Assembly (NCBI GenBank): GCA_024278275.1
Contig: JAJRTN010000089.1
Location: 1 to 41,539 of the forward strand
Reading direction: 5' to 3'
Origin: Candidatus Hydrogenedentota bacterium
GTDB lineage: Bacteria; Hydrogenedentota; Hydrogenedentia; Hydrogenedentales; JAJRTN01
Length of the DNA: 41,539 bases
How positions within the stretch are numbered: position 1 is the first letter of the stretch; every line of letters begins with the position of its first letter. Under the pieces are notes generated by a model. The model was not told where the DNA came from. It did not search any database and worked only from the letters and a program-made list of their open reading frames with translations. The translations under genes and the position numbers were made by a program. Of this stretch, positions 15,216 to 25,419 are shown in pieces.

Positions 15216-17384
15216 TCAGGCAACCCTTCCCGTAAGACCCGAGGCCATTTCAGCCCGGCGTATCAGTTCGTCCTGCTCCTCGGCCGACAACTCCACGAAC
15301 CGGGCATTGAGGCCGGCCACACGGACCACCAGCCCTTGATAGCGCTCGGGATGAACCCGGGCCTTGCGGAGGGTGTTCGCGTCCAGTACGTTGACCTGCA
15401 ATTCCTGGCCCCCACCATGAAAAAACGCTTCGGCCAATCCGCGAATGACGGTGGGGTGCGCCTGCGCACCGGCGGGCAGCGTCAGGTTCAGATTGTAGAT
15501 GCCGGTAAACCATTGCGCGGCGTCCAACTTCAGCACGCTGTTGAGCATTGCCGTGGGCCCGTTGCTTTGCGTGCCCATCACCGGACCGATGCTGTCGCCC
15601 ACCGGTGCGCCGCCTTCCCGCCCGTCGAGGGTCGGCCCCAGGCGGCGGCCGTCTAAATGGTGCAGAGAGCGCACCACATGACACACCGCGAAGGGAGGGA
15701 GGCCCGCCTTCCCGGCCACCTCGCGCAGGGCACGGTCGCGGCATACGTTGAGCGCAACCGCCAGCCGGTCGGCCTCATCGTTGTCATCTCCCCATTTCGG
15801 CGCTTCCGCAATGGTCTCCAATATCTTCGGGTCTCGCGCCTGGACACCCGCAAGCAAGTCGCCAACGCGGTGATGCCCACGCGTAACGAGATGTTCAATG
15901 ACCACGAGAACATTCACGGCATTGGCCGTGCCGCGAATGTAAAAGCCGTATAGGTCGGGATAGCGCATCCCCCGCAGCAGGTCCTGTCCCGATTCCGCGC
16001 AGGCGGGACACAAGGCGCTGCAGAAAGGGAAGGGCCGTTCGGCGGCATATTGGGCCAGGCGCGCGCGGCGTGCGGTTAACCCGGCTTCCGCCAAGTCGTG
16101 GACCCTCCGTTCGTAAGCGTCGAGGACATATTCCGTATTGCACGCCTCATCGGGAAGGCCCCGAACAAGGGCGTCTATCACGTTCAGGTCGTTGAAGCCC
16201 ATGCCTATGGAATTGGCCGATTGACAGCAGCGACCGGGGATCCCAAGTTCGTTGCAGCCCACGATACAGTAGTCCCAGGCATCCGGCGCGGTAACGCCGG
16301 CCGCCAGCAAACCGGGAACCACCTGGTGGTCGTTGACCAGCAGGGGCATGGAACGCCCGGCTGATAACATGGACAGCCCGCGCTCCCACACCGCCGGCTC
16401 CAAACCTTCATGACAGCGCAGAAAAAGGTGGGGGTCGCTGACCGGCGTTTTGTCGAAGGCGTCGAGGAACGCGAGGGTCACGGCGGAACACGCGTCTCCT
16501 TCGGGAGCCGCGCCGCCGATGGTAATCGCCTGCGTTTTGGATCCGCGGCCCAAGAAACTGTTGGAGGCGATGCGAAGCAGGAAGGCGCGAATCAGGTTAA
16601 CGCTTTGTTCGGGATTATCCTCGACTTCCGAGCGGAAGCGCGCCAGTGCGCGGTCGGGCAGACCGATGGACATGGACATGCCCTGTCCCTCGATCACGCC
16701 GGCCATGTGAACAAGCGCCATGGCCTGCAACCCCTCGAACAGGTTTCTCGCCGGTTGGGCCGGCACATGCCGGCACGCCGCCGCCATCCTGCGCAAACAG
16801 ACGGCCACATCCGGATCATCCGTTTGTGACGCGGCTTCCTCGGCCGCCTGCGCGTACCGGTGCGCCCATTCGATGACGGCCCGGCACGAGACCGCCATGG
16901 CCTCGCGAAACACCCGGTTCTCCGGCGGCAGGTCGTCGCGCCGCTTTTCCAGGGACGCGACGATTGAATCGAGGCCCCGGTTCACGACCAGATCAAGATC
17001 CAGGCTCATGTGACCGATGCCGCCATGACCGCCAAACTGCCGGTCCCGCCAAAAGACCCGGATGTCGGGGGGGATCTTACCGTCGAGAAAACCCTTGAGT
17101 TCCGAATGCTCCAGGGCAACCTGCGCATCTTCGTCGAAGCCGAATTCCGGAATCAACATCCACGCCCGGGGCACGGAGGATGTGTTGCCCGCGAACACGG
17201 GATTACTGAGCAGGTCAAGACGCATGTTACGAAGGACATGCTCGAAAACCCGGGCGCGCAGGATAGGGACCGGTTCGTCCGCGTAGCGGGCGTAGGCTTC
17301 CGTCACCAGGCGGGCGCGGTCAAGACAGACCGTATCCGTCGCTGAAAACAGGCGATCTTCCATACGCTTCAGGAGATGCTTCAC
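15216..17384 (-). CDS. Glycyl radical enzyme of unknown substrate (PFL/glycerol dehydratase superfamily)
   Basis: The 722-residue protein has the two defining sites of glycyl radical enzymes. The thiyl cysteine is in DYCIVGCNELG (Cys377), and the C-terminal loop RVAGLNARF holds the radical glycine about 31 residues from the end (Gly691). The cysteine motif reads GCNE where eliminases such as glycerol or choline lyase have GCVE, and the glycine loop has LN where YS is usual, so this is not pyruvate formate-lyase or a well-known lyase. The GTG at 17384 is preferred because GGAGG lies seven bases upstream and GTGA overlaps the activase stop; an in-frame TTG lies at 17390. The enzyme would be destroyed by oxygen. 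Confidence 0.88.
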   Translation of the reverse strand: MKHLLKRMEDRLFSATDTVCLDRARLVTEAYARYADEPVPILRARVFEHVLRNMRLDLLSNPVFAGNTSSVPRAWMLIPEFGFDEDAQVALEHSELKGFLDGKIPPDIRVFWRDRQFGGHGGIGHMSLDLDLVVNRGLDSIVASLEKRRDDLPPENRVFREAMAVSCRAVIEWAHRYAQAAEEAASQTDDPDVAVCLRRMAAACRHVPAQPARNLFEGLQAMALVHMAGVIEGQGMSMSIGLPDRALARFRSEVEDNPEQSVNLIRAFLLRIASNSFLGRGSKTQAITIGGAAPEGDACSAVTLAFLDAFDKTPVSDPHLFLRCHEGLEPAVWERGLSMLSAGRSMPLLVNDHQVVPGLLAAGVTAPDAWDYCIVGCNELGIPGRCCQSANSIGMGFNDLNVIDALVRGLPDEACNTEYVLDAYERRVHDLAEAGLTARRARLAQYAAERPFPFCSALCPACAESGQDLLRGMRYPDLYGFYIRGTANAVNVLVVIEHLVTRGHHRVGDLLAGVQARDPKILETIAEAPKWGDDNDEADRLAVALNVCRDRALREVAGKAGLPPFAVCHVVRSLHHLDGRRLGPTLDGREGGAPVGDSIGPVMGTQSNGPTAMLNSVLKLDAAQWFTGIYNLNLTLPAGAQAHPTVIRGLAEAFFHGGGQELQVNVLDANTLRKARVHPERYQGLVVRVAGLNARFVELSAEEQDELIRRAEMASGLTGRVA

Positions 17385-18103
17385 CAGCAAACCTCCACGG
17401 GATTGTCGGCGCGGCGGAGCATGGTCTCCGCCTTGCGGCAGACGGACGCCTCTACCGTCGGGTCCACGGATCCCGCAACGCCGATGCCGTGTCCGGGCAG
17501 CAGTTGAATTCTCGCGGGGGTGGGCAGATCGGCAAGAAACCCCGCGATTCCGTCAAGACTTTCACTATCGTCATTATACCCCCGGATCAACGGAATGCGT
17601 ACCCAAACAGACGCCGCCCGGCGATGCAGCAGCGTCCGCAGGTTCGACAGGACGGGTTTAAGGTCTCCCCCGCACGCCCTATGGAAGGCCTCCCCATTCA
17701 CGGTCTTGAGATCAAACAGCCAGAGCGAGGTAAATACATCCAGCAGGGAAATCGAAGCGGCGGGACCGAAACCCGCGGTTTCCACGCAGCAATGATAACC
17801 GTGCGCCTTGAGGGCTGCCAGAAAAGAAGCGCCCCCATCCGCCTGCAAGAGGGGTTCGCCCCCCGAAAGCGTAACTCCCCCGCCACTGTGTACCCAGTAC
17901 CGTGCGTCACGTTCCACCTCGCGTACCAACGTCTCGACCCGACGCGGAGTTCCCCCGGGGGATTCCGGCTGCATGGCGGGATTGTGGCACCACCAGCAAC
18001 GGAGCGGGCATCCTTGCAGGAAGACGACGGTTCGGATTCCCGGACCGTCCTGCACGCAGAAGCGTTGCACGGCATGAATCGTGAGGGTCGTTGATGTACT
18101 CAT
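17381..18103 (-). CDS. Glycyl radical enzyme activating enzyme (radical SAM)
   Basis: The 240-residue protein reductively cleaves S-adenosylmethionine to place the radical on the downstream enzyme. It shows the activase signature CVQDGPGIRTVVFLQGCPLR with the cluster cysteines C32, C36 and C39 (CPLRCWWC). GVTLSGGEPLLQ, the family SAM-binding motif, and VRIPLIRGYND follow. It lacks the two-cluster ferredoxin insertion of glycerol-dehydratase-type activases, so its size matches PflA. It overlaps the glycyl radical enzyme by four bases (GTGA), an unambiguous enzyme-activase pair. Confidence 0.93.
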   Translation of the reverse strand: MSTSTTLTIHAVQRFCVQDGPGIRTVVFLQGCPLRCWWCHNPAMQPESPGGTPRRVETLVREVERDARYWVHSGGGVTLSGGEPLLQADGGASFLAALKAHGYHCCVETAGFGPAASISLLDVFTSLWLFDLKTVNGEAFHRACGGDLKPVLSNLRTLLHRRAASVWVRIPLIRGYNDDSESLDGIAGFLADLPTPARIQLLPGHGIGVAGSVDPTVEASVCRKAETMLRRADNPVEVCW

Positions 18104-18460: not shown

Positions 18461-18769
18461 TAATATAGGGGTAGGGGAGACCGGTTACCCGGTCTCCCCT
18501 ACCTCCGAACCGTACGTGCGGATCTCCCGCATACGGCTCTCCAGTCGGTGGTCTTACCTCAAAGAGGACTGAAGAATTCGTGCCCGGGTCTGTTCCAGGT
18601 TGAGCAGCCCGAGTTTGTGATAGTAGACATTGGGCCATCGCTTATGGTCTGCTCCGCGTCCAAGGCCTTTCCGTTTCCTGCGCTTGCGCTGAATGGTGCG
18701 AAGCCGCCGGCGAACGTATTGGTCTATTACTCGAAGCGTAAAAGGGCGACTGTGCTCGAAAAATAGGGA
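18461..18769 (-). mobile_element. 3' remnant of a group II intron (maturase tail, domain V, domain VI)
   Basis: On the minus strand the order is: truncated maturase C-terminus (18554-18769), domain V (18507-18539) and a domain-VI-like hairpin (18470-18503). Domain V has the canonical lower stem GAGCCGTATGCGG against CCGCACGTACGGTTC. The following hairpin has a perfect 15-bp stem with loop GTAA and shows no bulged branch-point adenosine. The intron 3' end is probably near 18461-18466, beside a dispersed-repeat core. The catalytic 5' domains and most of the reverse transcriptase are missing, so it cannot move by itself. Confidence 0.8.
18554..18769 (-). pseudogene. Group II intron reverse transcriptase/maturase, C-terminal fragment
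   Basis: About 71 codons remain of a normally 400-plus-residue protein. The fragment reads through RVIDQYVRRRLRTIQRKRRK, then GRGADHKRWPNVYYHKLGLL and ends ARILQSSLR. The RWPNxYY...LGLL pattern is typical of the maturase tail of bacterial intron-encoded proteins. It is closed upstream by an in-frame TAG at 18770-18772, and no reverse-transcriptase motifs lie beyond. Position directly upstream of domain V agrees with intron organisation. Confidence 0.8.
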
Positions 18770-19267: not shown

Positions 19268-19993
19268 CTACTCGGAGGCTTTGTACTCGGGAAGGGGATT
19301 CCCTTGAGAGGGACCGATCAACTCTTCCAGCACTTCCTTGTCGCTCAGTGTGAATTGAGCGGCCAAGGTTCCCACGGCACGGAAATAGGGATGCTGTGTT
19401 TTCTCGCGCAGCGTGTCATCCAAAAGCCCTATCCAGGTCGCCAGGTGCCCGGCGAGAAAGTCTCGCTGCATTTCCCTGGCGCGCAAGAGATGGGGTTGAT
19501 CACCCTCGGCGGCGAATTCCAGATCTTTCTGGCAAAGGTGGGCCATGTAACTCAATTCCAGGCTGACATGATCGGGAAGATCCTTGAAGCCCTCGGAAAC
19601 ATCAACCGCCGCCAAGCGGTACCACTGCTTCACGGCCCTGGCCGAGGGACCCGCCAACAGGCCCCCTACCGGCTTCCCGTCGATCTCGCGGATATCTCTG
19701 AAAACGGATTCGTAGGGCGTGACGTACTGAGCGCCCGGGACCTTGAAGAGACGCATGAACTCCAGACGGCTCGATTCCTGCCAATCCTCTTGCCGGGCGA
19801 TGGTGGCGGATTCATGGAGCGCGGTCCCAAGTTCCCGGCCAAAGGGATTTTTCCCTTCCTCCATTACGAAGGGATTGCCACATATGACCTGAATGGCGTC
19901 CGCCGAGGGCGGCTCACGGAATGCCCAACTCAGAAAAGCATAGACATCCCGGCGAGCCGCCGCCAGCGTATTAAACAGCTCCTTGGAGATCAT
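19268..19993 (-). CDS. TorD/DmsD family molybdoenzyme chaperone
   Basis: TorD-type chaperones bind the Tat signal and apo-form of a molybdoenzyme until cofactor insertion is complete. The 241-residue all-helical protein has the family segments YVTPYESVFRD and LPDHVSLELSYMAHLCQKD (the DHxxxEL-type pattern). HLATWIGLL, near the conserved HxxxW site, follows. The ATG at 19993 has GGAG six bases upstream; an in-frame TTG at 20005 lies before that site and is rejected. It is last in the cluster, 19 bases after the ferredoxin subunit, and surely serves the molybdoenzyme at 20567. Confidence 0.9.
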   Translation of the reverse strand: MISKELFNTLAAARRDVYAFLSWAFREPPSADAIQVICGNPFVMEEGKNPFGRELGTALHESATIARQEDWQESSRLEFMRLFKVPGAQYVTPYESVFRDIREIDGKPVGGLLAGPSARAVKQWYRLAAVDVSEGFKDLPDHVSLELSYMAHLCQKDLEFAAEGDQPHLLRAREMQRDFLAGHLATWIGLLDDTLREKTQHPYFRAVGTLAAQFTLSDKEVLEELIGPSQGNPLPEYKASE

Positions 19994-20012
19994 TGTTTTC
20001 TCCAATACTGTC

Positions 20013-20543
20013 CTATGTCATCAATTCAAAGGTAATATTCGGTTCCGTGAAGCGTGGGTCGGCGAAATCATCCGGTACTTCCGTGCCCGTGGAGTCCGTG
20101 AAATTCTCCACGAACTGAAGCGCGCCCGTCAAACACGACGTGGCGCACGCGGGATTCAATCCGCCGTTCCTGCGATGCACGCACATGGTACATTTGTTGA
20201 CCTTGTTCGTGGCGGTGTCCGCGCGACACGCTCCGTAAGGACAAGCGGCAACGCAGTAGCGGCATCCCACGCACTTGCTTTGGTCGATCAGTACGATCCC
20301 ATCGGATGCGCGCTTGCTGATTGCATCCTCGGGACACGATTTCATGCAGGCAGGCTCGTCGCAATGGTTGCACGCCAACGAGATAAACTCCCGTTTGGTG
20401 TTGGGAAAGGTTCCGCTCTCCCGCTCCACCACGGCACGCCAGTCCGTACCCAAGGGGGTCTTGTTCTCGCTTTTACAAGCCACCTGGCACGAGCGACACC
20501 CGATGCAGCGTCTCGCGTCAAAGATCCAGCCAGATTGTGCCAT
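20013..20543 (-). CDS. Four-cluster ferredoxin subunit of the molybdoenzyme (DmsB/TtrB type)
   Basis: The 176-residue protein has the full cysteine set for four [4Fe-4S] clusters: CIGCRSCQVAC, CNHCDEPACMKSC, CVGCRYCVAACPYGAC and CTMC...CATSC. It would wire electrons from a donor to the catalytic subunit. There is no signal peptide, as expected for a subunit carried across the membrane with the Tat-tagged partner. The ATG at 20543 has GGAG upstream. It sits 23 bases after the catalytic gene and 19 before torD. It lacks a transmembrane tail, so it cannot by itself anchor the complex. Confidence 0.93.
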   Translation of the reverse strand: MAQSGWIFDARRCIGCRSCQVACKSENKTPLGTDWRAVVERESGTFPNTKREFISLACNHCDEPACMKSCPEDAISKRASDGIVLIDQSKCVGCRYCVAACPYGACRADTATNKVNKCTMCVHRRNGGLNPACATSCLTGALQFVENFTDSTGTEVPDDFADPRFTEPNITFELMT

Positions 20544-20566
20544 TTTATAGCTCCTTCTCATCCTCT

Positions 20567-23458
20567 TTAGACCTTGGTGACTTGCACGGAGGTATCATAG
20601 TAAGAAACACTGCCCCCGACCTTATCTTGAAGCGCAACGTTGCCGAGTGCCGGGTCCAGCCGCATAATGGGGTTGGCGGCAATGCCGTTGGCCCGGATGG
20701 GCTCAAACGACGATTCGATCCCATCCTGGGTCCATGGCTTCGATGCCATTTCCCAGTGGCCGAAACTGTGCGCCACGGTGACCACCCCGGGCCGGACGGT
20801 CTCGGTGACAAGCGCAAGGCCCTCCGCGCCGCCCGGCAAGGATCCCGACGTAACACGGACCTTGTCGCCGGTCTTGATGCCTCGGCTCTCCGCGTCGATG
20901 CTGTTTATTTCGACGAAGTTTTCGGGCATTACCGACACAAGCCATGGATTGTTGATGGTGCGCGCCATGCTATGCCACGCCTGCTTGTACGTGCTCAGCA
21001 GCAGGGGGAAAGCCGTGTCGGCCACCGGATTGCCCTGAGCGTCGGCAATGGGCTCATACTTGGCGTGGCCCGAGAAAAGCTCTCCTGTGATGGAGTCGCC
21101 CGTCGTGGCCAGGGTCTCGTTGAAAAAGAAAAACGTCCCGCTGAACTTATGCGCCATGGTTTGCCCATCATCGTCGTACAAGGCGTCGTAGTCCTCGAAA
21201 CGGCCACCGCGGTCAAGCACATACTGGATCTTTTCCTCCTCGCTTGCGCCCGGTACGCCGTCTCCTTCACCGGCGATATTGGCGACGAGCTGGTGGTGCC
21301 AGTCCCAAGCCCTGTCAATCGGGACGGGGTTCCCATCGACATCCTGACCTTCCAGCGGCAGGCCCATGGCCTTGCCAATGCCGATCAAAATATCTTCCAT
21401 GGTCTTGGTGTCGGGCAGCATGGGGGTGTAGTTCATGTCGACATCGAAGGTACCCACCACGGGCTGCCGGATGCCGCTTACCTTAGTATTGATGGCCGAA
21501 CCGACATGGGGCGTACTCCACCGTTCCAGGTAAGTCGTGTCGGGAAGAATGTAGTCGGCAAACGCGGTGGTCTCACCCATGGCAATATCAATGGCTACGA
21601 ACAAGGGTATCTTGGATTCGTCGGCAAGTACCCGTTGCGCCGTGGCTTTGCCTGCGGGGGTCGAGTATGTGATGTCGTTCCAATAAAGAACCAGCGCGCC
21701 CACCGAGTAGGGATACCCACTTTCGATACTCGGAAGAATCTCCTGATAGTTGTAATCGAAAGCGAAGGGGAACCAGGGGCGTTGTGCCGGGTATCCAGCT
21801 TGGGCAAATTCAGTGCTGTCCTGGTAGAAAGTTTTTACCCTGGTGATCCGGACACCGCTGTTGCTTACCCCGTTTACAAGGGTGGGGGGGCTGTATTGAT
21901 TTCCCGCCTTGCCGCCCATCTCGTGCCAATGACTGCCACCAAACACGTGACCGCCTTGCCAATTATAGTTACCGAGCAGCGTATTCAGGTTGATGATGGA
22001 CCACGAGTTATAGGTGCCGTTGGTGTGCTGCACCGCACCGCGGTAATGCTCCACCGAAACCTGTCGGCCATGCGTGGTCAGTTCAGTGGCGATATCCTGG
22101 ATAGTGGCCACGTCAATACCGCAAATCGCCGCCCATTCCTCAATGGTTCGGCTTCGCGCCTCGTCCACATAGATCTGGAAGGCCGTCTTGCAGAGGATGC
22201 CATTGACCTCCACTTCACCCGGAAGCAATTCCCCGACATCAACCGTATTGTACTGGGCGGCCTGGCCGTCGACCAGCACGACGTAATCATCGCTCGTGCC
22301 GCCCTCAATGCCGGCCTCATCGGCACGCAGATATTTCGTGCCGTGCCCGTTCTCATCGATCTTGACGAGCCAAGTGGCGTCGGTGGTGTTCAGTTCGGAC
22401 GTCGGGTTTGCGGCCTCCTTGTGCGGTCGCTGAAGAAAATTCACATTGTGCCGACCGTTATCGACGATCTCCCGTCCCAAAGCCAAAGCGAGGGCCGCAT
22501 CCGTGCCGGGTTGGGCGGGGAGCCACCAATCCGCTTTACTGGCCGCTACATTGCAGCGCGGATCAACCACCGCCATCTTGCCGCCATTTTGCAGCATATT
22601 AATCAGCTTGCGGGACTGGGCCACGAAGGGGAAGTTTGCCGCGCAGGGGTCCGATCCAAACCACAATACAAACTTGCAGTGTGCCAAGTCGGTGCTTCCT
22701 TTGGAAGCCGTCTTGCTCACCTGAAACTTGCCCGTGGCGAAGTTGTAACCCACATGGTGACTGGCTTCGCAGATGCTGGTGTGGTCGTGGCGTTTGTTCA
22801 CGGTACCGAAGGAGCTGCCCCAGAACCGGTCGGTGAACTCCTTTTGGCCGTGCTCGTTGCGCCCGCCGCTGAAAACAACCTTGTTCGCCAACGGCCCCAA
22901 TTCGGGCGCGCTTGAGTCGATGGGTGTATCAAGATCACGCAAGGCACTCAATCGTGCGCCGATTTCCGAGAACGCCTGTTCCCAGGAGATGGTCTCCCAC
23001 TGCCCGGCGCCACGCGCGCCGACGCGCTTGAGGGGTTCCTTGATCCGGTGGGGGTCGTACAGCACCTGGATACCGGCCTGTCCCTTGGCGCAGATACGGC
23101 CCGGCGTAAGCTTCGCGACTTCCGGATCCGTGTCATAAGGAAGGTGGGGCTCCATGTTGTTCGGGTGATAGGGATTGCCATCGATCTTCTCGAGTATCCC
23201 ACCCACCACCTTGGTCCGTATACCGCATGCGCTATGACAGGCCAGACACACGCTGTACTTGATATCAACTCGGGGGTCGGTTTCGATTAAGACAGGGTTT
23301 CCGAAATCCTGCGCGTAAGCGACGTTTTCCTTGAACAGCGACCCACCGAAAACGGCCATGGCGGTCATCGTTCCGGCCGTCTTAAGAAAGCCGCGGCGAG
23401 ACACCCCGTCTCCCCTGCAAGAACAGGCCACCCTAGAATTACTTTGTTCAGAACTCAT
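20567..23458 (-). CDS. Tat-exported molybdopterin oxidoreductase, catalytic subunit
   Basis: The 963-residue protein is a DMSO-reductase-family molybdoenzyme. The Tat signal SRRGFLKTAG is followed by a hydrophobic stretch. A [4Fe-4S] site is formed by CLACHSAC (C71, C74, C78) and C123 in GRICAKGQAG. HTSICEASHHVGY provides Cys230, the likely Mo ligand. Cys ligation and the ICAKGQ/LYDPHRI/LKRVG pattern point to the tetrathionate/polysulfide/thiosulfate/arsenate reductase side of the family; the substrate is undecided. The ATG at 23458 is chosen because GGAGG lies six bases upstream, whereas the ATG at 23464 overlaps it. The order cytochrome, catalytic, ferredoxin, chaperone is compact. No NrfD- or DmsC-type membrane subunit is encoded nearby. 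Confidence 0.92.
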   Translation of the reverse strand: MSSEQSNSRVACSCRGDGVSRRGFLKTAGTMTAMAVFGGSLFKENVAYAQDFGNPVLIETDPRVDIKYSVCLACHSACGIRTKVVGGILEKIDGNPYHPNNMEPHLPYDTDPEVAKLTPGRICAKGQAGIQVLYDPHRIKEPLKRVGARGAGQWETISWEQAFSEIGARLSALRDLDTPIDSSAPELGPLANKVVFSGGRNEHGQKEFTDRFWGSSFGTVNKRHDHTSICEASHHVGYNFATGKFQVSKTASKGSTDLAHCKFVLWFGSDPCAANFPFVAQSRKLINMLQNGGKMAVVDPRCNVAASKADWWLPAQPGTDAALALALGREIVDNGRHNVNFLQRPHKEAANPTSELNTTDATWLVKIDENGHGTKYLRADEAGIEGGTSDDYVVLVDGQAAQYNTVDVGELLPGEVEVNGILCKTAFQIYVDEARSRTIEEWAAICGIDVATIQDIATELTTHGRQVSVEHYRGAVQHTNGTYNSWSIINLNTLLGNYNWQGGHVFGGSHWHEMGGKAGNQYSPPTLVNGVSNSGVRITRVKTFYQDSTEFAQAGYPAQRPWFPFAFDYNYQEILPSIESGYPYSVGALVLYWNDITYSTPAGKATAQRVLADESKIPLFVAIDIAMGETTAFADYILPDTTYLERWSTPHVGSAINTKVSGIRQPVVGTFDVDMNYTPMLPDTKTMEDILIGIGKAMGLPLEGQDVDGNPVPIDRAWDWHHQLVANIAGEGDGVPGASEEEKIQYVLDRGGRFEDYDALYDDDGQTMAHKFSGTFFFFNETLATTGDSITGELFSGHAKYEPIADAQGNPVADTAFPLLLSTYKQAWHSMARTINNPWLVSVMPENFVEINSIDAESRGIKTGDKVRVTSGSLPGGAEGLALVTETVRPGVVTVAHSFGHWEMASKPWTQDGIESSFEPIRANGIAANPIMRLDPALGNVALQDKVGGSVSYYDTSVQVTKV

Positions 23459-23528
23459 CGTCATCCTCCTTACGGGGGTTACAATCCGTCAAACCTCATG
23501 GATGCGCATCGTCAAGGCTACTTCAACC

Positions 23529-23936
23529 CTAAAGGTTCGCCGCGTAGAAAGGCTGCGCGGAACCAGGTCCGTGGCATGCGGACAGCGCGCAGGACCGATC
23601 CCCACGGAGGCGTTGCGTTGTATTGAACACCACATCAACGCCGCCGCCATGACACGAAGCACAGCGGGCGTCTCCCGGGGCAAACAACTCGGGCATCACG
23701 GCATGAAAGGCAGGCAAGTCGCCTTCCGCAGCCGTCAGCTCAAGTCGGTTCTGGTGGCATTCCGTACAGTTCGGATTGTACTCATCCGAATCCGCATCAT
23801 GGATCGCTATGACCGAGAAGTCCGCGTACTGTGGCGGCGGAGTCACCCGCTTCACCTCTCTTGGTGGACACCCGTACAGCGGCAACAAACCGCTCAGGAC
23901 TATCGCTGCCATTAACAACCTGGTGCATCTTCTCAT
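23529..23936 (-). CDS. Triheme c-type cytochrome lipoprotein
   Basis: The 135-residue product starts with a lipoprotein signal peptide ending in LYGC (Cys23). Three haem c attachment sites follow: CTECH (57-61), CASCH (92-96) and the rarer CX4CH form CALSACH (116-122). Other histidines at 46 and 78 could be sixth ligands. It should be tethered to a membrane on the periplasmic side. GGAGG lies six bases before the ATG. It is the first gene of the molybdoenzyme operon, 70 bases upstream of the catalytic subunit, and so is likely its electron donor or acceptor. I do not recognise a named cytochrome family. Confidence 0.88.
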   Translation of the reverse strand: MRRCTRLLMAAIVLSGLLPLYGCPPREVKRVTPPPQYADFSVIAIHDADSDEYNPNCTECHQNRLELTAAEGDLPAFHAVMPELFAPGDARCASCHGGGVDVVFNTTQRLRGDRSCALSACHGPGSAQPFYAANL

Positions 23937-24105
23937 GATGGTCCTCCATATTCCTTCAGGTAGGCTTACCTTATTTTCAAAAGCGAACTAAGCTACTTTA
24001 GCAGGGGGGCCAGAAGATACACATCAGGGGTATCCCCCAAATCCCAGTGGCTGGATCGGTAGAAATACTTAGCCAGTAAGGGAAAACCCTTAGAAAGAGG
24101 AGACG
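23937..24105 (-). promoter_or_regulatory. Candidate control region of the molybdoenzyme operon
   Basis: This 169-base spacer between the regulator stop and the cytochrome start holds two clear symmetric sites. TAAGGGAAAACCCTTA at 24077-24092 is a perfect 6-4-6 palindrome, and GGGGTATCCCC lies at 24027-24037. On the minus strand the latter includes TACCCCT, which fits the NarL heptamer pattern TACYYMT. The NarL-type regulator encoded immediately upstream is a plausible ligand. No convincing -35/-10 pair was found. The first palindrome could instead help terminate the regulator transcript. Confidence 0.35.
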
Positions 24106-24762
24106 CTAACCAAGATCCAGGAGCCGATTGTCGATGGCAAACCGGACCAGGTCCGCCCTGTTACGGAGTTCCAGCTTGGCCATGATATGGGCGCGATGGC
24201 TTTCCACGGTGCGTGGGGATATATAGAGCCTGTCCGCCACTTGTGCATGGGACAGCCCGCGTGCGAGAAGACCGCACACTTCCTTTTCTCGGTTCGTCAG
24301 TTGAGCGAGCCATCCTCTCACTTCGCGGGGCTTTGCTTTCCCGACATAAGGCGAAATCACAAGCTCCAGTAGTGCCGGGTCCAAATAGCTTTCGCCCCGG
24401 TAGAGGGCCCGAAAGGCGCTCAGGAGTTCGTTGGGGGTCGATTTCTTGAGCACATAGCCTTTGACGCCGATTTCAAACAGCTCACGCACATACCGTTCGT
24501 CTTCGTGCATGGTAAGCACGGCGATCATCGTGTCCGGATTCGTCTTCAGAACCCGTCGGGCCACCTCCATGCCGGAAAAATCGGGCAAACTGATGTCAAG
24601 TGTCAAGATGTTGAAGTCCACTTCCTCGCACAAGCGAAGCGCTTCCTGGCCTGTACCCGCCTCGCCCACCACCTCGATGTCCTCTTCCTTCTCAAACAAG
24701 GCCCGCAAACCACTTCGGAAAAGGGCATGGTCCTCCACTATGAGGATACGAATAGCCGCCAC
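24106..24762 (-). CDS. NarL/FixJ-type response regulator
   Basis: The 218-residue protein has an N-terminal receiver domain: ILIVEDHALFRSGLR with acidic pocket, phosphoacceptor Asp56 in TLDISLP and the conserved Lys in GVKGYVLKK. The C-terminal LuxR-type helix-turn-helix is LTNREKEVCGLLARGLSHAQ. GTG at 24762 is the preferred start because GAGGGAG precedes it; another GTG in frame lies at 24783. It precedes the molybdoenzyme operon in the same orientation and is likely its activator, as NarL-type proteins often control anaerobic respiration. No sensor kinase lies in the window, so it is an orphan here. Confidence 0.92.
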   Translation of the reverse strand: MAAIRILIVEDHALFRSGLRALFEKEEDIEVVGEAGTGQEALRLCEEVDFNILTLDISLPDFSGMEVARRVLKTNPDTMIAVLTMHEDERYVRELFEIGVKGYVLKKSTPNELLSAFRALYRGESYLDPALLELVISPYVGKAKPREVRGWLAQLTNREKEVCGLLARGLSHAQVADRLYISPRTVESHRAHIMAKLELRNRADLVRFAIDNRLLDLG

Positions 24763-25419
24763 GACTTCGACTCCCTCTGTCACATGACTGGATAGACACC
24801 AAGGGCTCCCGCATACTGTGCTGTCTCAACGGGAACCGGAGTATTGCCTTGTTTTCCAAGTGAGTACGGTTAGTTGTACCCACGGCCATATGCCGCCCTT
24901 GGGGCGGCAGTTTAGGAAGGCATGGCAGATTTATCCTCATGATGGGGATTGGGGGGTGCATGCCACCCTCCTCATCGTCTGATGAGCCTGGCCGAACCCT
25001 CCCTTGGCGGACCGCTTTCCAGCGGGTACCGCCTCCGTTTCATTGGGCAGCCGCTACGGTACGCGACGGCACTTTGATGGTTCAACCAGAAAACACAAGA
25101 ACATGGGGTAGACTCCGAGTTTTTTTTGTTTCCACGCTTTGCGTGAGAACGGGAGGATAGCCTCTCTCCCGGTCGGAATGGTGCACTGAAGCACACCCTA
25201 CCCCTTCACCTTGGTTCAAGGGTGCTCTCGCTCCAACCCCAATCCCGTAGACAGGGTGCGCTTCGGCACACCGCCCAAGCCCGTGCCGCAATCCCGTCGG
25301 GGCGGGCCTGAGCCCGGCGCACCCGGTAGGGGCATGCTCCTGTATGATCATGGGCGTGGATAACCATTCGGGCCACGGTAGGGAAACCACCAGCCGCCGG
25401 GTTGAACCGGGCCGGGACG
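24763..25419. other. Divergent intergenic region rich in small palindromes
   Basis: These 657 bases lie between the minus-strand regulator and the plus-strand MESH1-like gene. They hold a hairpin TGCCGCCC-TTG-GGGCGGCA (24892-24910) and a run of eight T near 25119-25126. Two related GC-rich imperfect palindromes, GGTGCACTGAAGCACACC (25180-25197) and GGGTGCGCTTCGGCACACC (25254-25272), look like fragments of another interspersed repeat. No protein or RNA gene is supported. Confidence 0.5.

Follow-up and report, generated by a model that had tools for sequence, protein, structure and literature searches.

The operon and its catalytic subunit

The window analysed here, a stretch of 41,539 nucleotides from a Candidatus Hydrogenedentota bacterium (JAJRTN010000089.1 of assembly GCA_024278275.1), corresponds to one entire contig, C49, in a draft genome of 5.35 Mb and 200 contigs. 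On its minus strand, from position 24783 to position 19268, it carries genes for a NarL-type response regulator, a triheme cytochrome, a catalytic molybdopterin subunit (A), an iron–sulfur subunit (B) and a TorD chaperone, in this order (Table 1). An earlier note, made from the sequence alone, had described the locus as encoding a regulator, a triheme lipoprotein cytochrome, an exported catalytic subunit, a four-cluster ferredoxin and a TorD chaperone, and had pointed out that an NrfD/DmsC-type gene is missing. All five genes lie where it placed them, and no NrfD/DmsC-type gene was found in the operon (DmsC- and NarI-type genes were not searched for genome-wide).

Table 1. Genes of the molybdoenzyme operon, listed in gene order
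Gene product	Coordinates	Strand	Characteristics
NarL/LuxR-type response regulator, 225 aa	24106..24783	(-)	Response_reg and GerE domains
Triheme c-type cytochrome, 135 aa	23529..23936	(-)	CTECH, CASCH and CALSACH haem sites
Catalytic molybdopterin subunit A, 963 aa	20567..23458	(-)	Tat signal, one [4Fe-4S], Cys Mo ligand
Iron–sulfur subunit B, 176 aa	20013..20543	(-)	16 Cys, four [4Fe-4S] clusters
TorD/DmsD-type maturation chaperone, ~241 aa	19268..19993	(-)	Nitrate_red_del, PF02613

The cytochrome, A, B and TorD genes are separated by short intergenic gaps, and 169 bases lie between the regulator and cytochrome genes. The regulator gene, for which GTG 24762 is an alternative start, has no adjacent kinase gene. 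The start codon of A (ATG 23458) is preceded by an AAGGAGG Shine-Dalgarno site; that of B (ATG 20543) is kept in relatives and gives a protein of 176 rather than 182 residues; for TorD, ATG 19993 is likelier than the listed TTG. Among the features that characterize the complex iron–sulfur molybdoenzymes, a subunit for the molybdenum-bis(pyranopterin guanine dinucleotide) cofactor, a four-cluster ferredoxin and a dedicated chaperone are recognized in the sequence; the membrane anchor of the NrfD, DmsC or NarI type is missing from the operon.

The twin-arginine translocation (Tat) signal of subunit A exceeds the TIGR01409 cut-off, its [4Fe-4S] motif reads C-x2-C-x3-C...C, and the molybdenum-ligand Cys, located within TSICEASHH, aligns with the Cys of PsrA and ArrA. 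TtrA (NF011567) is the best NCBIfam model, but the score of 454 bits against a cut-off of 1750 led us to reject the identification of A as TtrA; the scores also fall below the cut-offs of ArrA (NF041714, 158 bits, cut-off 1600), PhsA (NF012032, 223 bits, cut-off 694) and DmsA-YnfE (TIGR02166, 195 bits, cut-off 778). A fold search with the predicted structure of A (mean predicted local distance difference test score, pLDDT, 76) returned the dimethyl sulfoxide reductase fold, the top PDB match being Shewanella ArrA (6cz7). TtrA, SrdA and the alternative arsenate reductase have been united in one family, and a seemingly novel sister lineage has been mentioned (PMC10100899). Nested with TtrA in the tree described below, and equipped with a Cys ligand, a Tat signal and a [4Fe-4S] motif, A is assigned on its sequence to this TtrA/SrdA/alternative-ArrA family in the broad sense. 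The novel sister lineage could be the clade to which A belongs. The earlier note had found no family member that it could confidently name for A, and had left the substrate open; A can now be placed at the level of the family.

Replacement of NrfD by a cytochrome

A scan of 84,980 species genomes for relatives of A returned 79 loci (the prefix L designates the related loci, G the genomes and C the contigs). The loci are of three kinds. Those of the window's kind have the order cytochrome-A-B-TorD, frequently followed by a ferredoxin gene, and none of these operons contains NrfD. The second kind, found mostly in Betaproteobacteria, has the order A-B-ferredoxin-TorD-cytochrome and no NrfD beside A, and the third has the classical order B-NrfD-A. 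When the 79 loci were taken together with the loci of relatives' genomes, the first kind numbered 21 distinct loci with readable upstream DNA, all of which carry a cytochrome gene with three to five haem motifs directly upstream of A. NrfD is directly upstream of A in 43 other loci, and in one more (L060) as judged by eye.

The A subunits of the first kind form one branch of 19 rows in two trees (Shimodaira–Hasegawa-like approximate likelihood ratio test, SH-aLRT, 99), and those of the second kind a separate branch (SH-aLRT 100). The A tree is unrooted and includes rows for DmsA and for TtrA, genuine TtrA being recognized by its annotated ttrRSBCA operon; the rows for SrdA, PsrA, ArrA and archaeal ArrA were left out. 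Genuine TtrA is placed among the NrfD-linked rows. A single group formed by the first and second kinds is not rejected (approximately unbiased test, p-AU 0.64), and NrfD was replaced once or twice if the root is on the TtrA side. The replacement of NrfD by a triheme cytochrome across one clade of A subunits is a family trait. The earlier note had proposed that the cytochrome stands in place of a membrane subunit, to be checked by a search for linkage and by a phylogeny of A. The homologous loci bear this out, since they consistently carry the cytochrome, lack NrfD and have A subunits forming one clade; the phylogeny, as far as the TtrA and DmsA rows go, places A with TtrA.

According to record titles, the first kind is found in Hydrogenedentota, Planctomycetota, Verrucomicrobiota, Poribacteria, Nitrospirota and Pseudomonadota (Gammaproteobacteria), i.e. 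in at least six phyla. The module is nevertheless patchy, since only five of the 68 genomes of the window's order carry A. One genome labelled Nitrospiraceae (G054, JAACEL010000346; locus L113) is placed in the window's order, so that its label is probably erroneous; MoeA- and MoaA-like genes come after its TorD gene. The clade also includes a duplication: in L054 (3538-5023), A is preceded by a tandem pair of triheme cytochrome genes. The members of the second kind (L095, L098, L100-L104, L106, L109, L110, L127 and L046) have a small cytochrome, triheme in most, and most of their loci have a divergently transcribed ArrX-like sensor gene. On two Citrobacter plasmids (L133 and L134, 7175-11979), a TtrA-like molybdoenzyme operon lies within an arsenic resistance island, and near-identical matches are present on Salmonella and Enterobacter plasmids.

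The haem motifs of the window cytochrome are not due to chance, because three or more CX2-4CH motifs occurred in only 19 of 200,000 shuffles of its sequence and because conservation of the domain extends to 17 loci. H46, a CxxCH motif, H78, M81, a second CxxCH and C-x2/x4-CH are invariant across these loci. Three haems need three distal ligands, and the invariant residues could supply two His and one Met for this role; a natural prediction is therefore one His/Met haem beside two with bis-His ligation. The uncommon CX4CH site pointed out in the earlier note (CALSACH) is indeed present, and is limited to the window and its close relatives L040, L041 and L042, with CX2CH elsewhere. The window protein reaches no curated cut-off of Pfam or NCBIfam; its nearest Pfam models, all below cut-off, are domains II/IV of MtrC/MtrF and cytochrome c7, and the best solved match of the triheme domain is MtrF (E 2.6e-8). 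Within the clade, PF22113 is matched by 15 of the 17 cytochromes and Cytochrome_C7 by 16 of the 17 (E up to 0.01), a likeness that stems in part from the haem motifs themselves.

The N-terminal parts of the clade's cytochromes vary: L040 and L042 have Ig-like Big_2 domains, L059 has a MopE-type motif, and L067 and L124 have collagen-like runs. The window cytochrome has an N-terminal signal with a near-canonical, lipobox-like LPLYG^C; the Pro at -4 makes it fail the strict PROSITE pattern, which the near relatives L040 and L042 pass. The lipid tether predicted in the earlier note is plausible for the window protein. Since some members show a clear lipobox and others have none, tethering does not belong to the definition of the clade.

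Subunit B of the window has no signal peptide of its own, and is therefore probably co-exported with A. It also lacks the C-terminal FGDxxDPxS stretch typical of NrfD-linked B subunits. The same holds for the B subunits of the clade, which are mostly 173-218 residues long, with 16 Cys and no signal peptide, and which lack the FGDxxDPxSxVS...GTxPxVYY tail of their NrfD-linked counterparts: a strict GDxxDP is found in 39 of 44 NrfD-linked B subunits (the other five have near variants) versus none of 20 in the clade. The missing tail would fit the loss of a contact surface, a correspondence that is only suggestive.

Electron source, substrate and competing interpretations

The genome contains four NrfD genes, all on other contigs than the window and all accompanied by redox partners of their own. 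C114 has an octahaem-FeS-NrfD-tetrahaem set (FeS, iron–sulfur protein); C64 has an FeS-NrfD pair, whose FeS protein is its own, and a reading frame bearing haem motifs; on C9 an alternative complex III adjoins cytochrome oxidase genes; and C29 has an Hmc-like set. The haem-motif frame upstream of the C64 pair (L036 8600-9090, G000:C64) is interrupted by in-frame TAG and TAA codons, and may be a pseudogene, an assembly error or a wrong frame.

A candidate electron source of a different type is encoded on contig C97. ImcH has been described as a protein of about 500 residues with N-terminal transmembrane segments, one CX3CH and five to nine CX2CH motifs (PMC6295460). The C97 protein corresponds to this description, with 490 residues, N-terminal transmembrane segments, one CX3CH and five CX2CH motifs, and it scores above the Cytochrom_NNT cut-off. 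It was found in all six A-bearing genomes tested; within the order, an ImcH-like protein is present in 5/5 A-bearing genomes versus 25/63 others (Fisher p 0.014, uncorrected for kinship). The C97 protein is the best candidate for the electron source, and a likely one, rather than an established partner.

Clues to the substrate come from the periplasmic sensors. In 37 loci, drawn from all three kinds, a gene for a PhnD-like sensor lies close to A, in many cases together with genes for a kinase and a regulator. For two such sensors compared with the PDB, ArrX was the best match (157-199 bits), followed by AioX and then by phosphite-binding proteins. A specific Cys is present in AioX, ArxX and ArrX and absent from PhnD, and each of the former three binds the substrate of its own molybdoenzyme (PMC5908839). 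The sensors linked to A homologues retain the AioX-family pocket residues, with this Cys kept in 35 of 36, whereas the PhnD-like sensor domain of TtrS is devoid of it. In the genome of the window, a full sensor-kinase-regulator set is present on contig C159, the window having only a related regulator; the C159 sensor pocket shows the ArrX/AioX residues Tyr, Cys106, Tyr, Ser, Ser, His and Asp, with Thr replacing the second Ser. Because the sensors beside A homologues are of the ArrX/AioX type and have the Cys that TtrS lacks, the sequences weakly favour, with low certainty, an arsenic-like oxyanion over tetrathionate. Co-occurrence within the order was of little help: close sensor matches in 2/5 A-bearing versus 2/63 other genomes (p 0.025) are too few, and a close homologue of the window's regulator in 23 of the 68 genomes makes its link to A uninformative. 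Elsewhere, in L168 (579-9373, G033:C88), genes for an ArrX-like sensor, a kinase and a regulator (62% identity to that of the window) lie directly downstream of large multiheme cytochrome genes.

We favour, as more probable than not, a respiratory molybdoenzyme of the TtrA/SrdA/alternative-ArrA family that does without NrfD, would be fed by the cytochrome and would act as a periplasmic oxyanion reductase. Menaquinol would be oxidized by a separately encoded membrane cytochrome, for which the C97 ImcH/NapC-type protein is the prime candidate; the triheme cytochrome, membrane-held or free in the periplasm depending on the species, would hand the electrons to B, which would pass them on to the molybdenum site of A, where an oxyanion would be reduced in the periplasm. 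Without NrfD, quinol oxidation would not be carried out by the complex itself. The electron direction, the substrate and the partner are inferred. The earlier note had similarly put the cytochrome between an unlinked quinol dehydrogenase and the ferredoxin; of this proposal, the existence of a candidate dehydrogenase is now established, its partnership and the direction of transfer being still a matter of deduction. A bolder version, according to which the branch spanning at least six phyla swapped NrfD for a dedicated triheme cytochrome that connects the enzyme to an ImcH-type cytochrome pool, and comprises an undescribed reductase for oxyanions of the arsenic, antimony or selenium type, strikes us as rather doubtful.

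That the cytochrome is a mere accessory of an ordinary three-subunit enzyme, whose NrfD would be encoded elsewhere, e.g. by the C64 pair, is very improbable. It is true that most of the Ttr-type NrfD genes from related loci are matched best by the C64 NrfD, and that no molybdoenzyme gene lies in the examined stretch around it; however, this NrfD is strongly matched in just three of the six genomes carrying an A subunit of the clade, the pair has redox partners of its own, and every readable operon of the clade combines the presence of the cytochrome with the absence of NrfD. Electrons could also flow the other way: A would oxidize a reduced compound, e.g. arsenite, antimonite or thiosulfate, and the electrons would reach periplasmic cytochromes, alternative complex III and a caa3 oxidase by way of B and the triheme cytochrome. 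NrfD would be dispensable if electrons left through cytochrome c, the C9 genes would provide the downstream part of such a chain, the sensor relatives AioX and ArxX sense arsenite (PMC5908839), and the invariant Met together with the two invariant His would permit a higher-potential His/Met haem. We nevertheless consider this direction rather unlikely, though still a live alternative, given that the TtrA/SrdA/alternative-ArrA members characterized are reductases (PMC10100899), that the sensor is nearer to ArrX, which senses arsenate, than to AioX, and that ImcH homologues have so far been implicated in quinol oxidation only (PMC6295460). A variant of the favoured reductase that differs only in its electron source (a bc-type complex, another multiheme cytochrome, or the NrfD-cytochrome complex of C29 or C114) carries more weight than either of these, and we regard it as a serious minority option: several cytochrome-linked quinone complexes are encoded in the genome, the Hmc-like and octahaem-tetrahaem sets among them; the ImcH-like protein is present in each of the A-bearing genomes tested.

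Several observations weigh against the NrfD-free, ImcH-fed reductase that we favour. The association with ImcH is weak, and the C97 gene is unlinked to the operon. About half of the clade's cytochromes have no lipobox, and the AlphaFold model of the window cytochrome is of low confidence (pLDDT 55). ArrB of Shewanella ANA-3, which functions without ArrC, keeps GDLDDP, so that loss of GDxxDP is not specific to the loss of NrfD and the motif is weakened as a marker of NrfD contact. Lastly, genome G033 has its ArrX-like sensor set, beside the large multiheme cytochromes, without any A, so that the sensor cannot serve as a strict marker for arsenic, and three of the five A-bearing genomes of the order have no close sensor.

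Relation to known systems and significance

NrfD counts as the standard quinone-reactive subunit in enzymes of this group. The srdBCA operon encodes three subunits, one of which is a membrane subunit. Among the closest known systems is TtrBCA with TtrSR, of the Salmonella/Citrobacter type. It shares with the operon of the window the nearest NCBIfam model of A, a four-cluster B subunit, a Tat signal on A and, in TtrS, a PhnD-like sensor domain. Unlike the cytochrome-A-B-TorD operon, it has an NrfD protein (TtrC) in the order B-C-A, which is how all Ttr-clade operons then known were described (PMC2500031), and its sensor lacks the Cys present in sensors near the homologues of A. The selenate reductase SrdBCA and the alternative (archaeal) arsenate reductase share the broad family of A (PMC10100899), with SrdA and archaeal ArrA standing outside our tree.

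The ArrAB enzyme of Shewanella ANA-3 resembles the proposed system in having no NrfD and in receiving electrons from a separate NapC-type quinol dehydrogenase, CymA (PMC2500031). The statement of the earlier note that known operons of this kind include an NrfD/DmsC-type protein was accordingly too general. ArrA is also the top PDB fold match of A, and ArrX is the best match of the sensors. However, the A subunit of the window is not ArrA (158 bits versus 1600), and in Shewanella no dedicated cytochrome gene replaces ArrC, CymA being a membrane-anchored tetrahaem protein. The C97 protein resembles the ImcH/NapC-NirT quinol oxidases in length, transmembrane segments and haem motifs (PMC6295460), its gene being unlinked to the operon, and the triheme domain is similar to the multihaem domain of MtrC/MtrF and to cytochrome c7, with three haems only and, for the window protein, hits below the cut-offs. 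NrfD-less molybdoenzymes are thus already known, as illustrated by ArrAB with CymA, but the literature searched contained no clade in which a dedicated triheme cytochrome takes over the position of NrfD. In particular, that search, which left subscription papers mostly uncovered, returned no description of a TtrA-like operon in which a triheme cytochrome replaces NrfD.

Two further features of the window lie beyond the operon. A truncated group II intron is found just downstream of the TorD gene, at 18465-18541 (-) (Rfam RF00029, 52.7 bits), the remnant including the tail of a reverse-transcriptase-like frame, to ~18720. The region 15216-18103 (-) encodes a PFL-like glycyl radical enzyme of 724 aa, which scores under every NCBIfam equivalog cut-off, and a radical-SAM activase.

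That NrfD has been replaced throughout a clade demonstrates that these complexes can exchange their quinol module, and it alters the energy yield to be expected from the respiration concerned. Annotating the A subunits of the clade as tetrathionate reductase would mislead. The order cytochrome-A-B-TorD provides a defined gene set by which the variant can be recognized across its phyla, and the ArrX-type sensors open the question of its substrate to direct testing.

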